DNA of 64,000 nt from Ferrovibrio sp. Lineage in GTDB: Bacteria; Pseudomonadota; Alphaproteobacteria; Ferrovibrionales; Ferrovibrionaceae. The translations under genes were made by a program, and so were the position numbers. Each line of letters begins with the position of its first letter. The stretch's first letter is position 1. Location: positions 7,501 to 71,500 of the forward strand of contig NZ_PEKV01000005.1 of NCBI RefSeq assembly GCF_002796975.1, read 5' to 3'. Below the pieces are notes generated by a model. That model had not been told where the DNA came from. It saw only the letters and a program-made list of their open reading frames with translations, and searched no databases. Shown in pieces: positions 2,857 through 63,999 of the stretch.

Positions 2857-3453
2857 TTGACGCAACACGTTCCGGCAGGAGTTTTACGATTGGGCATTAG
2901 TCACGATTGGTCCAGCAACGATATGACTCCGCAGTTGATGACTGCAGTTGGGCATGTCGTTCTGCGTTGGTCGCTGCTCGAAAACAAGCTTATCTGGACT
3001 GCGAGCTTCATTGCATGGCCTCGCGGTAAGGCCGTCCCCTCAAAGGTCGGCGAAATCCTTCGAATGTTGAAGAAGGAAGCAGAAAATCTATATCCGATGC
3101 ATCCGGATATGCCGTTGAAGTTGTCCAGCTTTTGTGATCGCCTTTTGGAACTGCAAGGCGCGCGGAACGATATTTGTCATGGCGTTCCTGGACGAATCAA
3201 AATATCAGGTCGAGCGTTTACTGGCCTGATGATCCCCGCGCAGGGTCGAAAAGAGGCGCGATATCGGGAAATATCTGTGGAGCAAATCGATGAGGTCGCG
3301 CGGCATATCATTCAAGCGGAAAAGAAGTTCGATAAGTGGAGCGACGAACTCTATCGGGCAGAGCAACGTAGATCGCGTACTCAGCAAGAGTACCATAACG
3401 GCCGAATGATGTTCACTGCGGATATTTTTCCGGAGCCCGATTCCACATTGTGA
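2857..3453 (+). CDS. HEPN-like hypothetical protein
   Basis: A 198-aa helical protein. Residues 98-109 read ELQGARNDICHG and hold an R-N-x3-H motif (R103, H108), the arrangement seen at the active site of HEPN ribonucleases of toxin and abortive-infection systems. The rest is amphipathic helix, with a charged C-terminal tail rich in Glu, Arg and Gln. No antitoxin-like partner (MNT) is adjacent. It is divergent from the DUF262-HNH gene (104 bp between the starts) and converges on the serine recombinase. The start at 2857 has a poor ribosome binding site, so a start a few codons later is possible. HEPN assignment is inference from the motif and the helical pattern. Confidence 0.55.
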   Translation: MTQHVPAGVLRLGISHDWSSNDMTPQLMTAVGHVVLRWSLLENKLIWTASFIAWPRGKAVPSKVGEILRMLKKEAENLYPMHPDMPLKLSSFCDRLLELQGARNDICHGVPGRIKISGRAFTGLMIPAQGRKEARYREISVEQIDEVARHIIQAEKKFDKWSDELYRAEQRRSRTQQEYHNGRMMFTADIFPEPDSTL

Positions 3454-55589: not shown

Positions 55590-55749
55590 CGCGACGGCAT
55601 CCGGTGTTAGTTCGACTCACATTGGGAATCGGATTCGGCCGCGCGACTCACATTCGGGGGCGCACTGGACTAACATTCGCTATCGGCCGCATTGCCGTAA
55701 GATGCGGAAATATAAAAGCGTCCCCTATCATTCTTATTCGGACTGACCA
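55590..55749 (-). repeat. Right end of transposon C
   Basis: Read inward on the minus strand: TGGTCAGTCCGAATAAGAAT, then repeats CGAATGTTAGTCC, CGAATGTGAGTCG and CCAATGTGAGTCG spaced about 20-30 bp. They share the core CGAATGT-AGTC with each other and a weaker relation to the left-end repeats. Interpreted as transposase binding sites. Confidence 0.75.
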
Positions 55750-55754
55750 AGAGC

Positions 55755-56704
55755 GGCTGCAGCTCGGGCATGAAATGCGCCGGAGAGTGTGGCGATGGAC
55801 CGGAATCCCGACCTGCGTTGGCATCGGCCCCACAAAGACGCTGGCAAAGCTCGCGAACCACGCAGCCAAGAGACGGCTTGAGTGTGCCGGCGTCTGCGAC
55901 CTTTCCGACCAGGCGCTACGCCGGCATGTCATGGCCGGTGTGGACGTTGGCGAAGTTTGGGGCATCGGTGGCCGCTCGGCCGCTAAGCTGCAGGCGCTGG
56001 GCGTGAAGACCGTTGCACAGCTCGCGGCGCTGGATCCGCGCCAGGCGCGATCACTGCTGACCGTCGTTGGCGAGCGCATCGTGCATGAGCTGAATGGTAG
56101 GCCGTGCCTGCAGATCGAGGAGTTGACACCAGCGCGGAAGACTACGGCCGTAACACGCAGCTTCGCTGCGCCAGTTAAAAATCTTGACGCGCTCTGCGAA
56201 GCAATCGCGTCATTCGCCACGCGTGCGGCGGAGAAGCTGCGAGAACACGACCAGGAGGCGGGCCTGCTCCAAGTATTCTTTCATTCGAGCCCCTTCAGGG
56301 CGCGAGAGGGAAAAGAGCCTTGGTTTTCGCGCGCTGCGAGTCATACGTTCGCCGCGCCCACCAGTGACACTCTGCAGCTCGTATCGGCCGCCGTGCAGAT
56401 TGCCCGACGAGGCTTCCAGCCAGGCTGCCGGTTGACGAAGGCCGGCGTGATGGCGCTTGGCCTGGTGCCGGCCGGTTCGGGGATGCGAGACCTATTCGAG
56501 GCGTCTGCAGCGACCAGGCCGAGGCTCATGGCCGCCATCGATGCGATCAATGCAAGGCAGGGGCGTGATGTGATCCGAACTGCAGCGGCCGGCATTCAAA
56601 AAGCCAGCGCAGATCGAACCCGAGCTGACTGGCGTATGCGCCAGGCAAGGCTTTCTCCGTCTTATACGACCAGGCTATCCGACATCCTGGAGGTGAGATG
56701 CTAA
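55755..56704 (+). pseudogene. umuC: umuC, 3' fragment
   Basis: Contains the rest of UmuC: thumb/HhH (GIGPTKTLAKLANHAAKRRL, VWGIGGRSAAKLQALGVKTV), little-finger domain (ITRSF-like AVTRSFAAPVK) and end LSPSYTTRLSDILEVRC, well aligned with the UmuC C-terminus. It lacks the catalytic N-terminal half. A longer open frame runs from 55604 through the transposon end, but the sequence before 55755 is transposon DNA. Reads without frameshift from the TSD AGAGC (55750-55754) onward. Confidence 0.95.
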
Positions 56705-56811: not shown

Positions 56812-59800
56812 ATGCGCATAATTCGGCCATATGGCGAAAGTCGGACTGAGCGTTCTGATCACCTAAAGCGAGTCTTATACGATAAGACGCAGAGCCGAGA
56901 GCGGCATGAAATCGGCCGATATGCTCAGGCGCATGGCGAACTCGTTATCGCCCAATGGATATCAATAATCGATAAGATCGCGACAAAGCCACAAGGAGAA
57001 CAGGGCGCAACTGAAGAGCAATACAAACTGCGAGATAGATTGGGGGAGGCAGCTTGGACCCGTCTTAAGGCCGACGGTCGACTAGAGCTTGATGACGCAA
57101 AGCGGGCAGAGTTTCTGTCAGCAGTTTGGAATTTCAAGATACACCCCTACGGGGAGCGTAGATTCAAACCAAAGCAGCCGCGACACGGCAATCTCGGATC
57201 GTCTCCATCCGCGCGCGGGCGCTGGTATATGCGGTTTGCGGGTGACACCTCACCTGAGAGGGTCAATGCAGAGGATGTAGTTCAAAGAATATCAGAGCAT
57301 TTGTATTCGAGTGAGTACCGCAAATCGGCAAGTGCAAAAAAGAAAACAACAGGCCTGATCGCTGCCCGAGCGGCCAGCATAGAGAAAAACACTCTGCGTG
57401 CGCTTCCCAACTCCACTGCAGGCTGGAGCAAAAGTGACGAAGCCCATTATGCTAAATTTGGAGACGTCGCTGCAGAAATCCACAGTGCAGTTGTCGTCTT
57501 GGAGCGTAGCGGTAAGCGGGTCTCGTTGGAGGTTGCGGGGCGTGTCTTGTTCGAGCATTGGCCCAAGGTCTTCTTTGATCCATTGAGCCGAAAAGCGCTC
57601 GGGATCGCTGATGCTAGAAACTCACATCCAGGTTTGTTCAGCCTGCATATGGCGGTCAAGGATGCCTATGCACGGGTTCTCAAGCGGCACAAAAAAGGCG
57701 CCGGCGCCGGTGCGCGGAAAGGCTCTCAGGCAACCGCTAGGCTCTCAGTCATCCTTCCAAAGGATATGCCTGGACTTATTCGGTTGATCACTGCTCAGAA
57801 AGACAATCAAAACATTAATCGTCAGATCCGGCTTGGCCGAATACTACACTATACGGCATCAGGAGAATGGAGCGATAGCACGACAGCAGTTGATGCCAAG
57901 TGGCCAACAGACATATTGGAAAGTCCATTTTGGGCTAGCGATGGGCAAGCCAAGATTAAGCGCGCTGAAGCATTTGTCCGGGTGTGGCGACATCAAATCG
58001 CGTTGGCCAGGCTGACTTTGACGGACTGGGCATCCATGCGGAAGCCGTTGAGTCGAGACATCCTCGGTGACCGCGCTGCTGCCAACCTAGTCATTCATCA
58101 AGACAATTTCAGTTCGGAACTTTTTGACCGAAAGGCTGCGCTCCTATTTGGCGTACAATCGAAGATATTTGCAGCCGACGACGCCTCGAAGAAAGAAGTA
58201 TTGAAGTGCGTGATCGAGGAAATGAGTGAGCTCAGAAACCAAGCCTTCCATTTTAAGGGGCTTCGCGAATTCCTAGTGAGCATTGATCGCTTATCATTTA
58301 GTGATCTTGTCCAAAAGAGCGCCCGCCAGATTTGGGAGGCTGATTCATCGCGTCGGAGTCACAGATTAAAGGAAACGCTCCGTGCAGCTCATGCGGAAGT
58401 ATATTTCTCCGCAACTCAATGTGAGGCCTTGTTAAGACGGGTGACTACGCAAGTCGACAGTGACCTACCACTCCCACGGTTTTCACGACTCTTGCGGCGC
58501 GCGAAAAGTTGCCCGGACAGAGCGGCTATAAAACTCCCGCCGCCGGCCAATCGTAGTGATCTTGAGCAGCCATGGCGGCTGTGTCAGTACACTGCTTTAA
58601 AGCTCCTATATGAGCGACCATTTCGCACATGGCTGGAGGCGCGCTCGGCCGACGAGTTGAACGCCTGGATAGGAAGGGCGGTGCAGCGGGCAACTGACGC
58701 CGCACATAGCCAGAATTATCGGAAGTACAAGCTTGCTCAAAAAGTCATCTCAGCCCGAGCATCATCATTACCAAGGCCGACTAAAGGGCAGAAGATTCGA
58801 GACTTTTTCTTCGCCCTTTCGTCTGCAACGGCCTCCGAAATGCGAGTGCAGCGGGGATACGAAAGCGACGGCGAAAAGGCACGTAATCAGGCAGACTTCA
58901 TAGATAATTTGCTCTGCGACGTAATGAGTCTTGCTCTGTGTCAATTTATATCGAGCGAGGCGTTTTTATGGATTCTGATCGCCCCGGTGGATCCATACCT
59001 AGTAGGCAAACGAAAATGCCAACTCGATGCTTTTGAACTTCCTATTCCGTCCTTCGAGGCGAAAGAATGGCAGGTGTCATTGTATTTCCTCCTTCACCTG
59101 ATCCCAGTTGGTGACGTAGCGCAGCTTCATCATCAAGTCGCCAAGTGGGAAATAACCGCCGGGCGGGATGAGGGCATAGAATTGGAGGACATGAACCGAA
59201 TCCTGCGATTGCAGACCACACTAAAACTATACATGGACATGCACGATGAAAAATTCGAAGGCGACGCAAGACTAGAGGGATGCGAAGGCTTTCGAGATTT
59301 ATTCGAGACTAATTCTGGATTCGAACAAGTCTTCCCCAAATCGTCCAGTCCCGATGATGATCGTCACTTGCCGCGAAGGGGCCTGCGGGAAATCATGCGT
59401 TATGGCCATCTCCAGATGGTGATGGGATTCCTTCCGAAACAAAAAATCAGCGATGGAGAAGTAGCGGAGTACCTAGAAACGATGCGGGCAAGCGGGCCCA
59501 ATGGGCAGTCGGAGATCGCAATTCATCAGGCACAAAGAGAGGAGCTGCATGAGAAGTGGTCAAGGGCCCGACCGCAGCTACTTTCCGGTGATGAATATCG
59601 GGCCTATTGCGAAGTGCTGACAAAAATCGTGAAGCACCGTCAGGCAGCCGCGCGTATTAATCTCACCGCCATAGTTCACTTTCACCACCAAGTGATGACC
59701 TTACTCGGCCGCCTTGCCGATTTTTCCGGCCTCTTCGAACGAGACCTGTACTTTGTAACACTGGCAATCTTGTATCAGTACGGCCTCAGTCCCCAACGAG

Positions 59801-60462
59801 CTTTTGAGGACAAAGGTCTTGGCTATCTCAAGGAAGGCCGGATATTCAAAGCATTGGAGAATTTGATAAGTGAGCATAAAGGGAAGATTAAGGTCGAATT
59901 AAAGCATTACTTTGGACCGGAATGGGACTCGTGGGATGGGCGGCGGGGAACTCGTAATCGCCTCGCGCACTTCAATATGCTTCGTTCACACGCTCCGAGG
60001 CTAGATATGACGGAGTGGGTGAATAGCACGCGCCGTTTGATGAGCTATGATCGAAAGCTGAAGAACGCCGTCAGCCAGTCGATTCGAGAAATGATGAAAC
60101 GCAATGGTATCGAACTTTCATGGCAAATGGATACTGGCGGTAAGAATCACGAACTTACGAGCGCGGTAGTGTCTTCTGCCAGCGTCGTGCATTTGGGCGG
60201 AATCCGACTTGTTGAGTTTTCCGGCTCAGCGTCGAATTCGAACAAGACCCAAGCGATCACGGAAGCCCTACACGGAACACCTTACGTACAGATGGTTGCC
60301 GCACTATTTGGTGGCAAAACGCAGCAGTTTGACGATATCACAGGCCGCGATTTGTCGAACATTGATTGGCAAAGTACGGAACGGAAGGCTCAAAATACCG
60401 GGGGACGTGGTGCTATGGGCACTCTGCGCCCGCGCAGGGAAGAAAAAGTGCGCCGAGAATAA
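56812..60462 (+). CDS. cas13a: Cas13a (type VI-A CRISPR RNA-guided RNase)
   Basis: 1216 aa. Two HEPN RNase motifs: R475-N-Q-A-F-H480 (SELRNQAFHFKGL) and R1048-N-R-L-A-H1053 (GTRNRLAHFNM), spaced 573 residues. In Leptotrichia buccalis Cas13a the catalytic pairs are, from memory, R472/H477 and R1048/H1053, so positions agree closely. Cas13a enzymes are 1100-1400 aa with HEPN1 in the middle and HEPN2 near the end. Other parts are basic helical sequence without similarity visible by eye. The CRISPR array follows 38 bp after the stop on the same strand. The base composition is lower in GC than the neighbouring genes and start is ATG at 56812. Function: crRNA-guided cleavage of target RNA and collateral RNA. 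No cas1 or cas2 is in the window. Confidence 0.93.
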   Translation: MRIIRPYGESRTERSDHLKRVLYDKTQSRERHEIGRYAQAHGELVIAQWISIIDKIATKPQGEQGATEEQYKLRDRLGEAAWTRLKADGRLELDDAKRAEFLSAVWNFKIHPYGERRFKPKQPRHGNLGSSPSARGRWYMRFAGDTSPERVNAEDVVQRISEHLYSSEYRKSASAKKKTTGLIAARAASIEKNTLRALPNSTAGWSKSDEAHYAKFGDVAAEIHSAVVVLERSGKRVSLEVAGRVLFEHWPKVFFDPLSRKALGIADARNSHPGLFSLHMAVKDAYARVLKRHKKGAGAGARKGSQATARLSVILPKDMPGLIRLITAQKDNQNINRQIRLGRILHYTASGEWSDSTTAVDAKWPTDILESPFWASDGQAKIKRAEAFVRVWRHQIALARLTLTDWASMRKPLSRDILGDRAAANLVIHQDNFSSELFDRKAALLFGVQSKIFAADDASKKEVLKCVIEEMSELRNQAFHFKGLREFLVSIDRLSFSDLVQKSARQIWEADSSRRSHRLKETLRAAHAEVYFSATQCEALLRRVTTQVDSDLPLPRFSRLLRRAKSCPDRAAIKLPPPANRSDLEQPWRLCQYTALKLLYERPFRTWLEARSADELNAWIGRAVQRATDAAHSQNYRKYKLAQKVISARASSLPRPTKGQKIRDFFFALSSATASEMRVQRGYESDGEKARNQADFIDNLLCDVMSLALCQFISSEAFLWILIAPVDPYLVGKRKCQLDAFELPIPSFEAKEWQVSLYFLLHLIPVGDVAQLHHQVAKWEITAGRDEGIELEDMNRILRLQTTLKLYMDMHDEKFEGDARLEGCEGFRDLFETNSGFEQVFPKSSSPDDDRHLPRRGLREIMRYGHLQMVMGFLPKQKISDGEVAEYLETMRASGPNGQSEIAIHQAQREELHEKWSRARPQLLSGDEYRAYCEVLTKIVKHRQAAARINLTAIVHFHHQVMTLLGRLADFSGLFERDLYFVTLAILYQYGLSPQRAFEDKGLGYLKEGRIFKALENLISEHKGKIKVELKHYFGPEWDSWDGRRGTRNRLAHFNMLRSHAPRLDMTEWVNSTRRLMSYDRKLKNAVSQSIREMMKRNGIELSWQMDTGGKNHELTSAVVSSASVVHLGGIRLVEFSGSASNSNKTQAITEALHGTPYVQMVAALFGGKTQQFDDITGRDLSNIDWQSTERKAQNTGGRGAMGTLRPRREEKVRRE

Positions 60463-60500
60463 AATTCTCAACTATGATTGCTTATAAGTATCTAATACTT
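60441..60500 (+). promoter_or_regulatory. CRISPR leader, copy 1 (overlapping the cas13a 3' end)
   Basis: CGAGAATAAAATTCTCAACT...GATTGCT precedes the first repeat. It starts within the last codons of cas13a (stop at 60460-60462). About 31 of 45 bases are equal to the copy at 60693-60738. Contains CGAGAAT and GATTGCT at identical spacing (22 bp) in both copies. Confidence 0.65.
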
Positions 60501-60670
60501 GGATGAGATCACCCCCAAATCGTGGGGGACTATACCTGGTGCCTTCCGTGGTTGATGAGAGCGCCGTGCTTAGATCACCCCCGTATTGAGGGGGACTGCA
60601 CCCGGTCTTTCCCCTATCGCATGGAGGGGCGCTAGACTGAATTCACGCCGTATTGAGGGCGACTGTTTCC
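60501..60670 (+). CRISPR. Upstream, diverged CRISPR array (repeats 1-3)
   Basis: Three repeat copies: R1 60501-60536, R2 60567-60602, R3 about 60634-60670, separated by spacers of 30 and about 31 nt. R1 and R2 match the main consensus at 27/36 and 28/36 positions; the CCCCC/GGGGG stem is perfect in both. R3 reads ACGCC...GGGCG: the second base pair is changed on both sides (C to G, G to C), keeping the stem. R1 and R3 differ in the loop and the 3' tail. Not annotated as active; likely an old duplicate of the array below. Confidence 0.75.
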
Positions 60671-60690
60671 GAGAGCCGGCAGCGCCGTAG

Positions 60691-60750
60691 CGAAAGATGC
60701 GTCGAGAATCAAGATATCGATAACGATTGCTAGTTAGGTGCCAGCGTCTG
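60691..60750 (+). promoter_or_regulatory. CRISPR leader, copy 2
   Basis: Second copy of the leader, between the diverged and the main array. It begins with a relic of the cas13a C-terminal coding end (GATGCGTCGAGAAT against AGTGCGCCGAGAAT) and repeats CGAGAAT...GATTGCT at the same 22-bp spacing. It lies 250 bp after copy 1. It directly precedes the nearly identical repeats R4-R6, so it is the probable active leader. Confidence 0.65.
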
Positions 60751-61178
60751 AGTCCAGATGACCCCCAGATTGAGGGGGACTACATCCCGCCTCGCTGCGT
60801 GTCGTGTCGTGTCGGTCATGGAGTCCAGATGACCCCCAGATTGAGGGGGACTACACCCTGTCTCCTGTTCGGGCTAGAGGGAGTCCAGATGACCCCCAGA
60901 TTGAGGGGGACTACACCGCTTTCCCGGAGTTAGTGTGGTGCGTTGCTGATCGGGACGCACCCAGATAGAAGGGAAATATCTCGCCGGGTTGGTCGGCTTA
61001 ATCTTGAGGTCAAATCCAGAAACCCCCAGATTGAGGGGGACTACACCACTCATCCTTGGCCTCCAGTGTTATAGGGGGTTCTAGATGACCCCCAGATTGA
61101 GGGGGACTACACCAGAGGGCTTGCGGTTAGACATGAGGGCTCGATGCAGATGCTCCCCAAATTAAATGCAACTGCATC
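60751..61178 (+). CRISPR. Main CRISPR array, type VI-A (repeats 4-10)
   Basis: 36-nt repeats; R5 (60822-60857) and R6 (60882-60917) are identical and R4 (60751-60786) differs by one base. R8 (61012-61047) and R9 (61078-61113) match in the 3' 25 nt. R7 (about 60947-60982) and R10 (61143-61178) are degenerate. The repeat has a stem of CCCCC and GGGGG around loop AGATTGA and ends GGGGGACTACACC. Cas13a repeats such as the Rhodobacter capsulatus one end GGACTGAACC with the same stem layout. Spacer lengths: 35, 24, 29, 29, 30 and 29 nt. Direction: same strand as cas13a, repeat precedes spacer, so the crRNA carries the repeat hairpin at its 5' end, as in type VI-A. Confidence 0.92.
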
Positions 61179-61338: not shown

Positions 61339-62820
61339 CTAACGTTGCCTATCAAAAGTAGGCTCGCGATGCTTCGAAGACAGCTTGATCGGGTTTAAAG
61401 CGCGTATGATCTGACGTTGCGACACAACAATGGCCATGGCCAGCGGGTCCGTCGATGCCTCATAGATCAGAAAATCCCGCCACGTCTTGAACGCCAGCAC
61501 CAGCAGCGATTTCCGCTGCCGCTGCAGTGTCAGGTATCGACGCCAGAGCCTGGCCTGGCCTGGATGGCTAGTGACAGGCCGCTTCCGGTATTGCTTACGC
61601 GGGCCGCTCACCGTCCTTTGGCGTGCCGCCGGCATCGGCCTGGCAGCAGATCCTAGGCCCGCCGCCCGCTGCTGCGCCGCGCGTCTGGCAGCCAGGATCT
61701 GCTGCGCCTGGCGGGAAGGGGCCTGGAACGCTCCCAGGCGCTTCTGCAGGGCGGCCTTGGAATATGCGCGGCCGATGGTGCTCGCTTTGATCGATGCGCC
61801 ACGTTTGCCAGGATCCAGCACCAGGCCGTTGCCCTGCAGCCGCAGTTCCAGCCCATGTCGTGCCAGACCGACATGCAGATCCTGCCATGATTCGGACTGA
61901 CGAAAGACTTTAGACAGGTCGTCATTTTGCGGCGCGGATCCGGCCTGACCTGGCTGACGATCGTTCGCCCGATCGCCAGAGCGCTTGAGCTGATGATCGG
62001 CGGCTTGCTCCGCCGTGCGATCGGCAACTGGCGGCTGAAACTGGCCAAGCCGAGTTTCAAGAGATTTCATCGACAGAAGCCGGTCAATCGAGCTGGCCTT
62101 TACACGATGCTTCCCATTCGCATCAGCAATCACCATGCCATTGCCGTAAGGCTGCAGCTGAAGGCTGAAACGCGCCATGCCGTCATGCAGATCCTGCCAG
62201 GTCGACGACTGATCGAGCGCGGTCACCAGCTCGGCTTTATTCTCGCGCACATAGCCGTCGAAACTCTGCTCCCAGGTGTGCGCCTCTTTATCCAGGGCGC
62301 GCTGCGGCCGCCGTTCAGATTGCAGCTTGTCAGAGCGGCCAAGATCGACCTTCAGGCCATGTTTCTTTTCCATCTCGCGGCTGACAGCTTCCAATGTCTG
62401 GAAATCACGCAGCGGCGTATGAGCTTTCAAGGTGTCAGGATGGATCTTGTTGATCGCAATGTGCATGTGGAAGTTATAAGTATTCACATGCGTTCCGATA
62501 ACGCGCTGGTGCTCGGCATAGCCGAGCGATTTGGCAAACTCGCTCTCAATATCCTTCAGGACATCGAGCGGCGGATGCTCGTCCCGGAACGAGATCATCA
62601 GATGGTAGGTCTTGCCGATCTTTGTGCGCTGATTGAGTGCTTGCGTAGCCTTGACCTCAGCAATGGCCAGATCTAGGTCATCGAGGCCGTCGCCGGCATT
62701 GCAGTTCTCAATCCAGAAGGATTCCAGCTTTTCGCCATCATCCTTGGCAGCTGCGATGTAATTCGCCAGGCCGGCGAAATCGTCGTTCTCAGGCTCGATA
62801 TCGATACGCTTGGGAATCAC
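61339..62820 (-). CDS. traI: TraI-type MOBP relaxase (RP4 TraI-like)
   Basis: 493 aa. N-terminal relaxase domain closely follows RP4 TraI: DFAGLANYI with the candidate nicking Tyr21, KTYHLMISFRDE, GYAEHQRVIGTH and the HUH-type metal site H111-x6-H118-M-H120 ending AINKIHP. The C-terminal half contains two tandem copies of an about 60-aa unit (TWQDLHDGMARFSLQL ... and SWQDLHVGLARHGLEL ...), at about 205-260 and 310-365. The enzyme nicks oriT and pilots the strand during conjugation; a coupling protein and mating pair are not in the window. Last in a four-gene mobilisation operon. Confidence 0.9.
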   Translation of the reverse strand: MIPKRIDIEPENDDFAGLANYIAAAKDDGEKLESFWIENCNAGDGLDDLDLAIAEVKATQALNQRTKIGKTYHLMISFRDEHPPLDVLKDIESEFAKSLGYAEHQRVIGTHVNTYNFHMHIAINKIHPDTLKAHTPLRDFQTLEAVSREMEKKHGLKVDLGRSDKLQSERRPQRALDKEAHTWEQSFDGYVRENKAELVTALDQSSTWQDLHDGMARFSLQLQPYGNGMVIADANGKHRVKASSIDRLLSMKSLETRLGQFQPPVADRTAEQAADHQLKRSGDRANDRQPGQAGSAPQNDDLSKVFRQSESWQDLHVGLARHGLELRLQGNGLVLDPGKRGASIKASTIGRAYSKAALQKRLGAFQAPSRQAQQILAARRAAQQRAAGLGSAARPMPAARQRTVSGPRKQYRKRPVTSHPGQARLWRRYLTLQRQRKSLLVLAFKTWRDFLIYEASTDPLAMAIVVSQRQIIRALNPIKLSSKHREPTFDRQR

Positions 62821-62835: not shown

Positions 62836-63420
62836 TCACATCGAAAGGACACGTTCGCGGACCTGGGCGACAAGGCCGACACCCAAGGCTTGCTCTTGTT
62901 GGGCGGTGTAGGCGAGGGCGGCAACACGAATGTTGTGCCGCCGCGCATCGAGGATCTGCTTTTCTGTGTCCGTCAACCGTGACTTATCAGCGTTCAGTAG
63001 GCGCGCGTTGTGCGATTGGAAGAACTGCCGGGCTGCATCGCGCGGCACGCCGCCAATCCGGCTCTTGGCATTTCCGTGGCTGGCATCGATGGCCAGGTAC
63101 AATTCCGGGTCTTTCACTAAAGGCAGCATTTTCTGCGCCTGGCCCAGCTCGGTCAGAGCAGCAGCCAGGCTAGAACGCATCGAGGGGCTGTTGCTGTAAA
63201 AACGCGCATCGTTTTTAAGGAAGCCGGCCTCTGCAGAAAGGATCAGATCGACATCGCCCGACTTGCCGATAGCCTTTGTGGCCTGCAGAAGCATGTCCTG
63301 GCTTAGACGGTACTGCTTTGCTTCCTTGCTGCGCTCGCGGCCGATATAGGCGGCGCGTTCATTCACCATGCTCTTAGCCAGGCGGACCAGAAGCCCCTGG
63401 TTGGTATCAGGCGTCGACAT
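62836..63420 (-). CDS. Hypothetical protein of the mobilisation operon, 194 aa
   Basis: Start taken at the Met of MSTPDTNQGLLVRLAKSM (63420); an upstream Met at 63462 is possible. Mostly helical and basic, with a SRIGGVPRDAARQFFQSHNARLLNAD segment and a C-terminus rich in Gln/Ala helices. Not recognised as a known family. Position between traJ-like and traI-like genes, 15 bp before traI, suggests a role in relaxosome assembly. Confidence 0.65.
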   Translation of the reverse strand: MSTPDTNQGLLVRLAKSMVNERAAYIGRERSKEAKQYRLSQDMLLQATKAIGKSGDVDLILSAEAGFLKNDARFYSNSPSMRSSLAAALTELGQAQKMLPLVKDPELYLAIDASHGNAKSRIGGVPRDAARQFFQSHNARLLNADKSRLTDTEKQILDARRHNIRVAALAYTAQQEQALGVGLVAQVRERVLSM

Positions 63421-63664
63421 GGCGATCCAGCCAGCCCTTGCCGAACTGGCGGTCGGCTTCATCGGTACGGAGGCCCATGGCTCGCACCTGGTCGGCTCCC
63501 AGAAAGTCCTTCAGCCAGAGCAGCGACTCTGCGGGGTAGATCATCTGGCGCATCAGTCGATCTTCCTCAGCTTCATCGCCACGACGCGCAGCGTCGAGCA
63601 CCAGCGGTAGAAGCTCATCATTCTGAGCAAAACGATTCAGATCAGTTTCGGAATACTCAGCCAT
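63407..63664 (-). CDS. Small hypothetical protein of the mobilisation operon, 85 aa
   Basis: Acidic helical protein with LVLDAARRGDEAEEDRLMRQMIYPAESLLWLKDFLGADQVRAMGL in its middle. Not recognised. Its start shares one base with the traJ stop and its end overlaps the next gene by 14 bp, so it is coupled to both. Confidence 0.6.
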   Translation of the reverse strand: MAEYSETDLNRFAQNDELLPLVLDAARRGDEAEEDRLMRQMIYPAESLLWLKDFLGADQVRAMGLRTDEADRQFGKGWLDRHVDA

Positions 63665-63999
63665 TAGTTCAGCTCCCTGACTTTCGATTTAAGCAAAATC
63701 TGTGTTTCGCGGATGCTATCAAAGAGGCCGCGAAAATCCATACCGTCGGGTAGGACTAGGCTCTCATCATCGAGAATTAGCTTCATAAGATTCCCAAGAC
63801 GGGCCAAATCGGCATTGATCCTCAACAGATCGCGGACGATCAGATGCTTGTCGTTCGCTGCCATGGGCTGCCGGCCTGACGTAAGCCTACAGACCAACTC
63901 AGAGAATGACTGCCCTGTGCGCTTGGCCAGGGCTTCCAGATCGGCCTTGTCATGCGGAGTGGGGTAGAATTTCGCCAGCACGCGATTTTTGAGCGGCAT
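63664..63999 (-). CDS. traJ: TraJ/MobC-like relaxosome protein
   Basis: 111 aa. Ribbon-helix-helix-like N-terminus (KNRVLAKFYPTPHDKADLEALAKRTGQSFSELVCRLTSG) followed by LLRINADLARLGNLMKLIL, which matches the conserved segment of RP4 TraJ (RINGDLGRLGGLLKLWL). It would bind oriT and recruit TraI. The oriT is expected just upstream, i.e. beyond the right edge. First gene visible of the operon traJ, two small genes, traI. Confidence 0.85.
   Translation of the reverse strand: MPLKNRVLAKFYPTPHDKADLEALAKRTGQSFSELVCRLTSGRQPMAANDKHLIVRDLLRINADLARLGNLMKLILDDESLVLPDGMDFRGLFDSIRETQILLKSKVRELN

Follow-up and report, generated by a model that had tools for sequence, protein, structure and literature searches.

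Organization of the locus

The 64,000-nt stretch of Ferrovibrio sp. contig NZ_PEKV01000005.1 analysed here (the window) carries a cas13a gene and, directly downstream, clustered regularly interspaced short palindromic repeats (CRISPR). Judged from its sequence, this is an authentic type VI-A CRISPR-Cas13a locus, a system type already known. Ten repeat positions of 36 nt (R1–R10), separated by spacers (S1–S9), lie on the + strand between 60501 and 61178, and the first begins 38 nt past the cas13a stop codon.

56812–60462, + strand: cas13a, 1216 amino acids (aa); assigned from profile matches, the alignment with structure 7os0 and motifs
60427–60482, + strand: first leader-like stretch; spans the 3′ end of cas13a and gap sequence before R1
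60501–60669, + strand: CRISPR array A; R1 60501–60536, S1 60537–60566, R2 60567–60602, S2 60603–60633, R3 60634–60669
60677–60731, + strand: second leader-like stretch, in the 81-nt interval before R4
60751–61178, + strand: CRISPR array B; R4–R10, of which R7 and the terminal R10 are degenerate
60501, 60567, 60634, 60751, 60822, 60882, 60947, 61012, 61078 and 61143, + strand: starts of R1–R10

The Cas13a protein

The product of cas13a matches the NCBIfam model cas13A_C2c2 (NF038188) with 726 bits, at a cut-off of 150 bits, and residues 1–1166 cover positions 1–1192 of the 1192 in the model. The PADLOC Cas13a model scores 698 bits. The nearest solved structure, 7os0, is that of Rhodobacter capsulatus Cas13a (RcCas13a), to which the protein is homologous over nearly its full length. 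The HEPN motifs are RNQAFH at residues 475–480 and RNRLAH at residues 1048–1053. Residues R475/H480 and R1048/H1053 align with R464/H469 and R1052/H1057, the catalytic residues of RcCas13a, and R1081, N1085 and H1113 align with R1085, N1089 and H1113, which process precursor CRISPR RNA (pre-crRNA) in that protein (PMC8776769). From these residues, the window Cas13a is predicted to have its own pre-crRNA processing site. The reading frame of 1216 codons is intact, and every catalytic and processing residue is kept.

Repeats and array organization

The repeat core is composed of CCCCC, seven nucleotides, GGGGG and ACTACACC; it is 31 nt long and folds as a 5-bp C5/G5 hairpin. R5 and R6 are the same and R4 is one base off, and the 36-nt copies of R4–R6 are alike at 35–36 of 36 positions. 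R1, R2, R8 and R9 are variant repeats. The hairpin is kept in R4–R6 and in the cores of R1, R2, R8 and R9; R1, R2 and R9 diverge in their first five bases, whereas their cores hold. Repeats of this type follow cas13a directly at more than 12 other Cas13a loci, and the array has the 5′-handle orientation of type VI-A. A covariation test on 20 distinct repeats found the helix preserved in 91% of cells, with 11 double changes, a level that none of 500 shuffles reached; related sequences, which inflate such tests, are part of the set. An Rfam search gave no match near the cas13a locus.

The repeats are spaced irregularly, at 60–117 nt. The interval between R3 and R4 holds a 55-nt stretch resembling the sequence just 5′ of R1, with a local score of 39 (maximum 35 in 1000 shuffles and 32 in about 1000 genomic windows). 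Because of this resemblance, the simplest reading is that of two tandem arrays, R1–R3 and R4–R10, as the second leader-like stretch suggests.

A preliminary description of this DNA had claimed a type VI-A Cas13a locus on a mobile alphaproteobacterial element, which the profiles, the homology to 7os0, the shared repeat type and the element context (below) bear out. Its 1216-aa protein with HEPN residues R475/H480 and R1048/H1053 was exact, and its 36-nt repeats with a C5/G5 stem 38 nt after the stop codon were confirmed. The profile search and repeat folding that it proposed returned a full-length Cas13a match with both HEPN motifs and the C5/G5 hairpin, respectively.

Spacers match probable temperate prophages of the genus

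Comparison of the array with the genomes of the genus identified matches of four of the nine spacers (S4, S5, S8 and S9) to early genes of two temperate prophages of another species. All are found in one genome, G388, on two short contigs, L058 and L059. SD denotes the Shine-Dalgarno sequence.

60787–60821, + strand: spacer S4, 35 nt; matches L058:10396 and also L059:5758
60858–60881, + strand: spacer S5; 22/24 at L058:12115 and L059:4661, covering the SD just upstream of an ATG
61048–61077, + strand: spacer S8; 20/22 first nucleotides at L058:10903, at the SD/start of a Lar-like anti-restriction gene
61114–61142, + strand: spacer S9; 21/22 first nucleotides at L059:701, at an ATG

Over their first 22 nt, S4 and S5 each match 21/22 on both contigs, S8 matches 20/22 and S9 matches 21/22, and 2400 shuffled control spacers never rose above 18/22 against L058 and L059. 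S4 is 35 nt long because GTGTC is present three times instead of twice; with one copy removed, it matches the prophage at L058:10396 in 29 of 30 positions. Every match is antisense to a phage open reading frame (ORF), and a CRISPR RNA (crRNA) would therefore pair with the mRNA, as an RNA-targeting system needs. The 3′ flanks of the targets do not continue the pairing with the repeat, and no tag:anti-tag brake is therefore expected. All four targets are located at translation starts (SD or start codon), where 15–22% of the 22-mers of the region lie. The chance of this is about 0.001 as a first-order estimate, which is a pointer and not proof, since there are only four sites.

Contigs L058 and L059 carry tyrosine integrases, a Lar anti-restriction protein, an HNH protein and an excisionase-like protein, and a contig sharing 302 bp with one prophage end encodes a CI-like repressor and a CII-like activator. 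From this gene content, they are most likely temperate prophages. No Cas13a was found in genome G388. No target of the spacers was found in their own genome (best non-self match, E 0.2), and searches of 50,697 phages and of 72,556 plasmids gave chance-level matches only. An 18-nt match of S6 to L072, from exact scans of viral contigs, was rejected as chance: roughly one such hit would be expected, and the agreement ends at 19 nt.

L059 (G388:C60) also contains, at 1325–2215 on the + strand, a gene whose product has a long series of CSDCSxCS-type repeats, and at 2882–3124 on the + strand an acyl carrier protein gene of the PHROG moron class, to which several genomes of the genus have stretches 71–76% identical.

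Cas13a as cargo of a conjugative element

The genes flanking the locus are as follows.

55765–56704, + strand: umuC/mucB-type polymerase gene, 5′-truncated; its frame, 55604–56704, runs in from chromosomal DNA
61339–62820, − strand: TraI/MobA(P) (MOBP) relaxase, first gene of a conserved conjugative element
62836–63462, − strand: 208-aa protein of the conserved element, no family match
63664–63999, − strand: NikA/TraJ-like mobilization protein, cut by the window end

Chromosomal colinearity with genome G389 (91%) stops at 55752, inside the frame leading into umuC, and the junction sequence places the left border of the foreign DNA at about 55752–55770. The IMS domain of umuC is matched at positions 110–147 of 148 only; about the first 110 positions of the catalytic domain are missing. 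By this comparison, umuC is cut at the left junction, in line with its inactivation as previously described. On the other side, from 61391 on, just past the array, the sequence corresponds for most of its length to an element in G388, with 95% identity. The conserved genes encode the relaxase, DUF1173, ArdC, VirD4, VirB8, VirB9, TrbI/VirB10 and TrbL, and VirB4- and VirB11-like ORFs were identified by eye only. The relaxase, coupling protein and mating-pair genes are thus all present, and the genes of the type IV secretion system (T4SS) run on beyond the window to C35:92259. The preliminary description had seen a conjugative relaxase operon here; the MOBP/TraI relaxase stands, but it belongs to more than a relaxase operon, as the element has a T4SS.

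The G388 element encodes a serine recombinase and is bounded by two copies of a 12-bp transfer RNA (tRNA) 3′-end core, CTCCCGCAACCA. In the place of umuC, cas13a and the array, its cargo consists of genes of sugar-transfer and two-component type, assigned by eye. The window element keeps the right tRNA-type core CTCCCGCAACCA, and no left copy occurs within the region examined at its left end; it is therefore probably truncated at the left. From this arrangement of genes, the left end of the integrated conjugative element holds Cas13a, the array and the truncated umuC as its cargo. The GC content at third codon positions is 0.53 in cas13a versus about 0.7 in the surroundings, which fits the expectation for imported DNA.

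The element ends (C35:92203–92260, equal to L033:12203–12260; G389:C91:156129; G203:C1:717137; G388:C98:13067) each combine the tRNA 3′-end core with a terminator. The tRNA-like genes near them were missed by ARAGORN and are weak or incomplete in Rfam, and may be remnants or interrupted genes. Right after the right end of the element, C35:93000–136500 (L033–L035) contains a large surface-sugar biosynthesis region with aminotransferases and genes of nucleotidyl- and glycosyl-transfer type, recognized by eye.

Relatives and comparison with known systems

The genome has one cas13a gene and the nine others of the genus have none; plasmid and phage collections contained no relative of the protein. 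The preliminary remark that alphaproteobacterial Cas13a are few, with R. capsulatus as the known case, was only partly right. Cas13a is indeed present in only 5 of 385 genomes of a class-wide sample, but 24 Cas13a loci turned up in a scan of GTDB genomes, of which about 16 bear alphaproteobacterial titles, and an alphaproteobacterial clade is present in a published tree (PMC6753606). In our tree of 23 sequences, the window Cas13a groups with those of Rhodovulum, Tateyamaria and Thiothrix in a group of six (support 100/99). The nearest rows are Rhodovulum Cas13a, at 43% identity, for which alphaproteobacterial Cas13a clade 1, type VI-A/RT1, has been described (Toro et al. 2019, PMC6753606). Type VI-A/RT1 is defined by a module of reverse transcriptase (RT)-Cas1 and Cas2, which the Rhodovulum system has and the window locus lacks, with no Cas1 in the genome. 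On a Candidatus Tokpelaia contig (L030 58–9879), a 148-unit CRISPR array of another type lies near a partial Cas13a that has seven repeats in an array of its own.

The type VI-A system of R. capsulatus SB1003 (7os0; PMC8776769, PMC11089165) resembles that of the window in a Cas13a homologous over nearly its full length, with the same HEPN and processing residues, and in an array directly downstream of cas13a plus a second array. It has, however, an adjoining cas1 and arrays of four and two spacers (PMC11089165), whereas the window genome has no cas1, its arrays stand in tandem and its locus lies on a conjugative element. Methylocystaceae bacterium HF-Din02 (locus L015) also has cas13a and a short uneven array in a genome lacking cas1; a TraI-type relaxase nearby shares 50% identity with that of the window. 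There, unlike in the window, cas13a follows a RepC gene (L015 473–1924, + strand) with a serine recombinase between them, which makes L015 a probable RepABC-type plasmid and thus a second case of Cas13a on a transferable replicon. The tree does not resolve its branch with that of the window Cas13a. Type VII arrays share the missing adaptation module and the many repeat substitutions, but have an unrelated effector, Cas14, and target transposable elements; their uneven repeats were read as a sign of arrays that seldom gain spacers (PMC12669027).

A missing adaptation module

The absence of cas1 and cas2 nearby, claimed in the preliminary description, extends for cas1, the only one of the two searched for across the genome, to the whole 97%-complete assembly, by a search whose control was positive in 9 of 14 known genomes. 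Without cas1 in the genome, the array would be unable to gain spacers by its own means, and the guide set would be fixed. The arrays of relatives are mostly uniform, with 36-nt repeats and a 66-nt period. Short uneven arrays are found in the window locus, L015 and L010, and no cas1 was seen in these three genomes. The tie is not strict, since the array of L019 is uniform though its genome also lacks cas1.

We tentatively consider, as an idea that is so far rather unlikely to hold, that such a “frozen” guide set on a mobile element lets each crRNA unit evolve alone. The hairpin and about the first 22 guide nucleotides would be kept, the discarded parts (spacer tail and first five repeat bases) would drift, and the retained guides would be those that target early genes of rival temperate phages at their translation starts. 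Pointers to this are the fit of S8 and S9 to only about nucleotide 22, the altered lengths of S4 and S5, the differing 5′ bases of R1, R2 and R9, the four of four targets at start sites, and L015, where two stem positions differ between repeat copies by compensatory changes. Against it stand the few sites, the uniform L019 array, and the divergence of the phages, which could account for the short fits.

Proposed function

We propose that the locus, part of the cargo of an integrated conjugative element, is a type VI-A Cas13a immune system that cuts the RNA of matching temperate phages (probability roughly 0.85). The family membership, catalytic and processing residues, hairpin repeats, prophage-matched antisense spacers and cargo position are established here at the level of sequence, and anti-prophage immunity with a fixed array is the most likely function. 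The array would be transcribed on the + strand. Cas13a would cut the pre-crRNA upstream of each hairpin by its own processing site, giving guides composed of a repeat handle of 30–31 nt, starting near AGATGACCCCC, and a spacer. During infection or prophage induction, the guide would pair with early mRNA from a temperate phage that it matches, the two HEPN domains would form a composite RNase, and target and bystander RNAs would be cut. Cell growth would then stop, and the phage would not spread. Processing, target-activated and collateral cleavage, and growth arrest are proposed by analogy with studied Cas13a of R. capsulatus and Listeria. Relatives process their own crRNA and cleave RNA in cis and in trans upon target activation (PMC8776769), and the R. 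capsulatus system arrests growth (PMC11089165).

Several observations weigh against this proposal. R3, R7 and R10 agree with the consensus at only 21/36, 20/36 and 23/36 positions; as the best score elsewhere in the window is 22/36, they are recognized by position and not by score. R3 (60634–60669) has a possible compensated 4-bp stem, CGCC/GGCG. A sigma-70 promoter-like site was looked for at the array and not found. Five spacers lack a convincing target. S8 and S9 match over about their first 22 nt only, and the target base 3′ of both protospacers is G, which is disfavoured by L. shahii Cas13a. The matched spacer parts are about 90–97% identical to the prophages, which makes present protection uncertain.

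Such signs could also belong to a decaying relic, which arrived with the element, lost adaptation and drifts without active defence. The three degenerate repeats of ten, the irregular spacing, the missing cas1, the left truncation without an att core and the broken umuC agree with decay; the intact 1216-codon gene with all its catalytic and processing residues, the hairpin kept in R4–R6 and in the cores of R1, R2, R8 and R9 and the four spacers that still match a prophage family of the genus do not, and we regard a relic as improbable. Still less probable is a chiefly regulatory use, in which crRNAs silence prophage translation by pairing at start regions, with or without cleavage. The start-site placement of all four targets speaks for it, but the sites are only four and are seen through related phages, where they are perhaps the conserved ones; moreover, the start matched by S9 has no SD, all HEPN residues are intact, and the host's own genome has no found targets. 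HEPN motifs alone do occur in toxins and abortive infection (Abi)-type proteins, but such a protein beside an unrelated repeat is refuted by the full-length Cas13a profile match, the alignment to 7os0 and the repeat kind found directly after cas13a elsewhere.

Significance

New here are the prophage targets of four spacers, the cargo position on a conjugative element, and the spread of alphaproteobacterial Cas13a beyond R. capsulatus, at about 16 loci, for which a clade was already published. The nearest relatives found for the window protein are about 43% identical to it, and of ten genomes of the genus only this one has a copy. Identifiable natural targets are often missing for type VI loci; those of the window are two temperate prophages of the same genus. 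The near-identical element without Cas13a in G388, the genome of the targeted prophages, offers a natural with/without comparison. As cargo, the window locus illustrates how Cas13a can pass between species without adaptation genes of its own.

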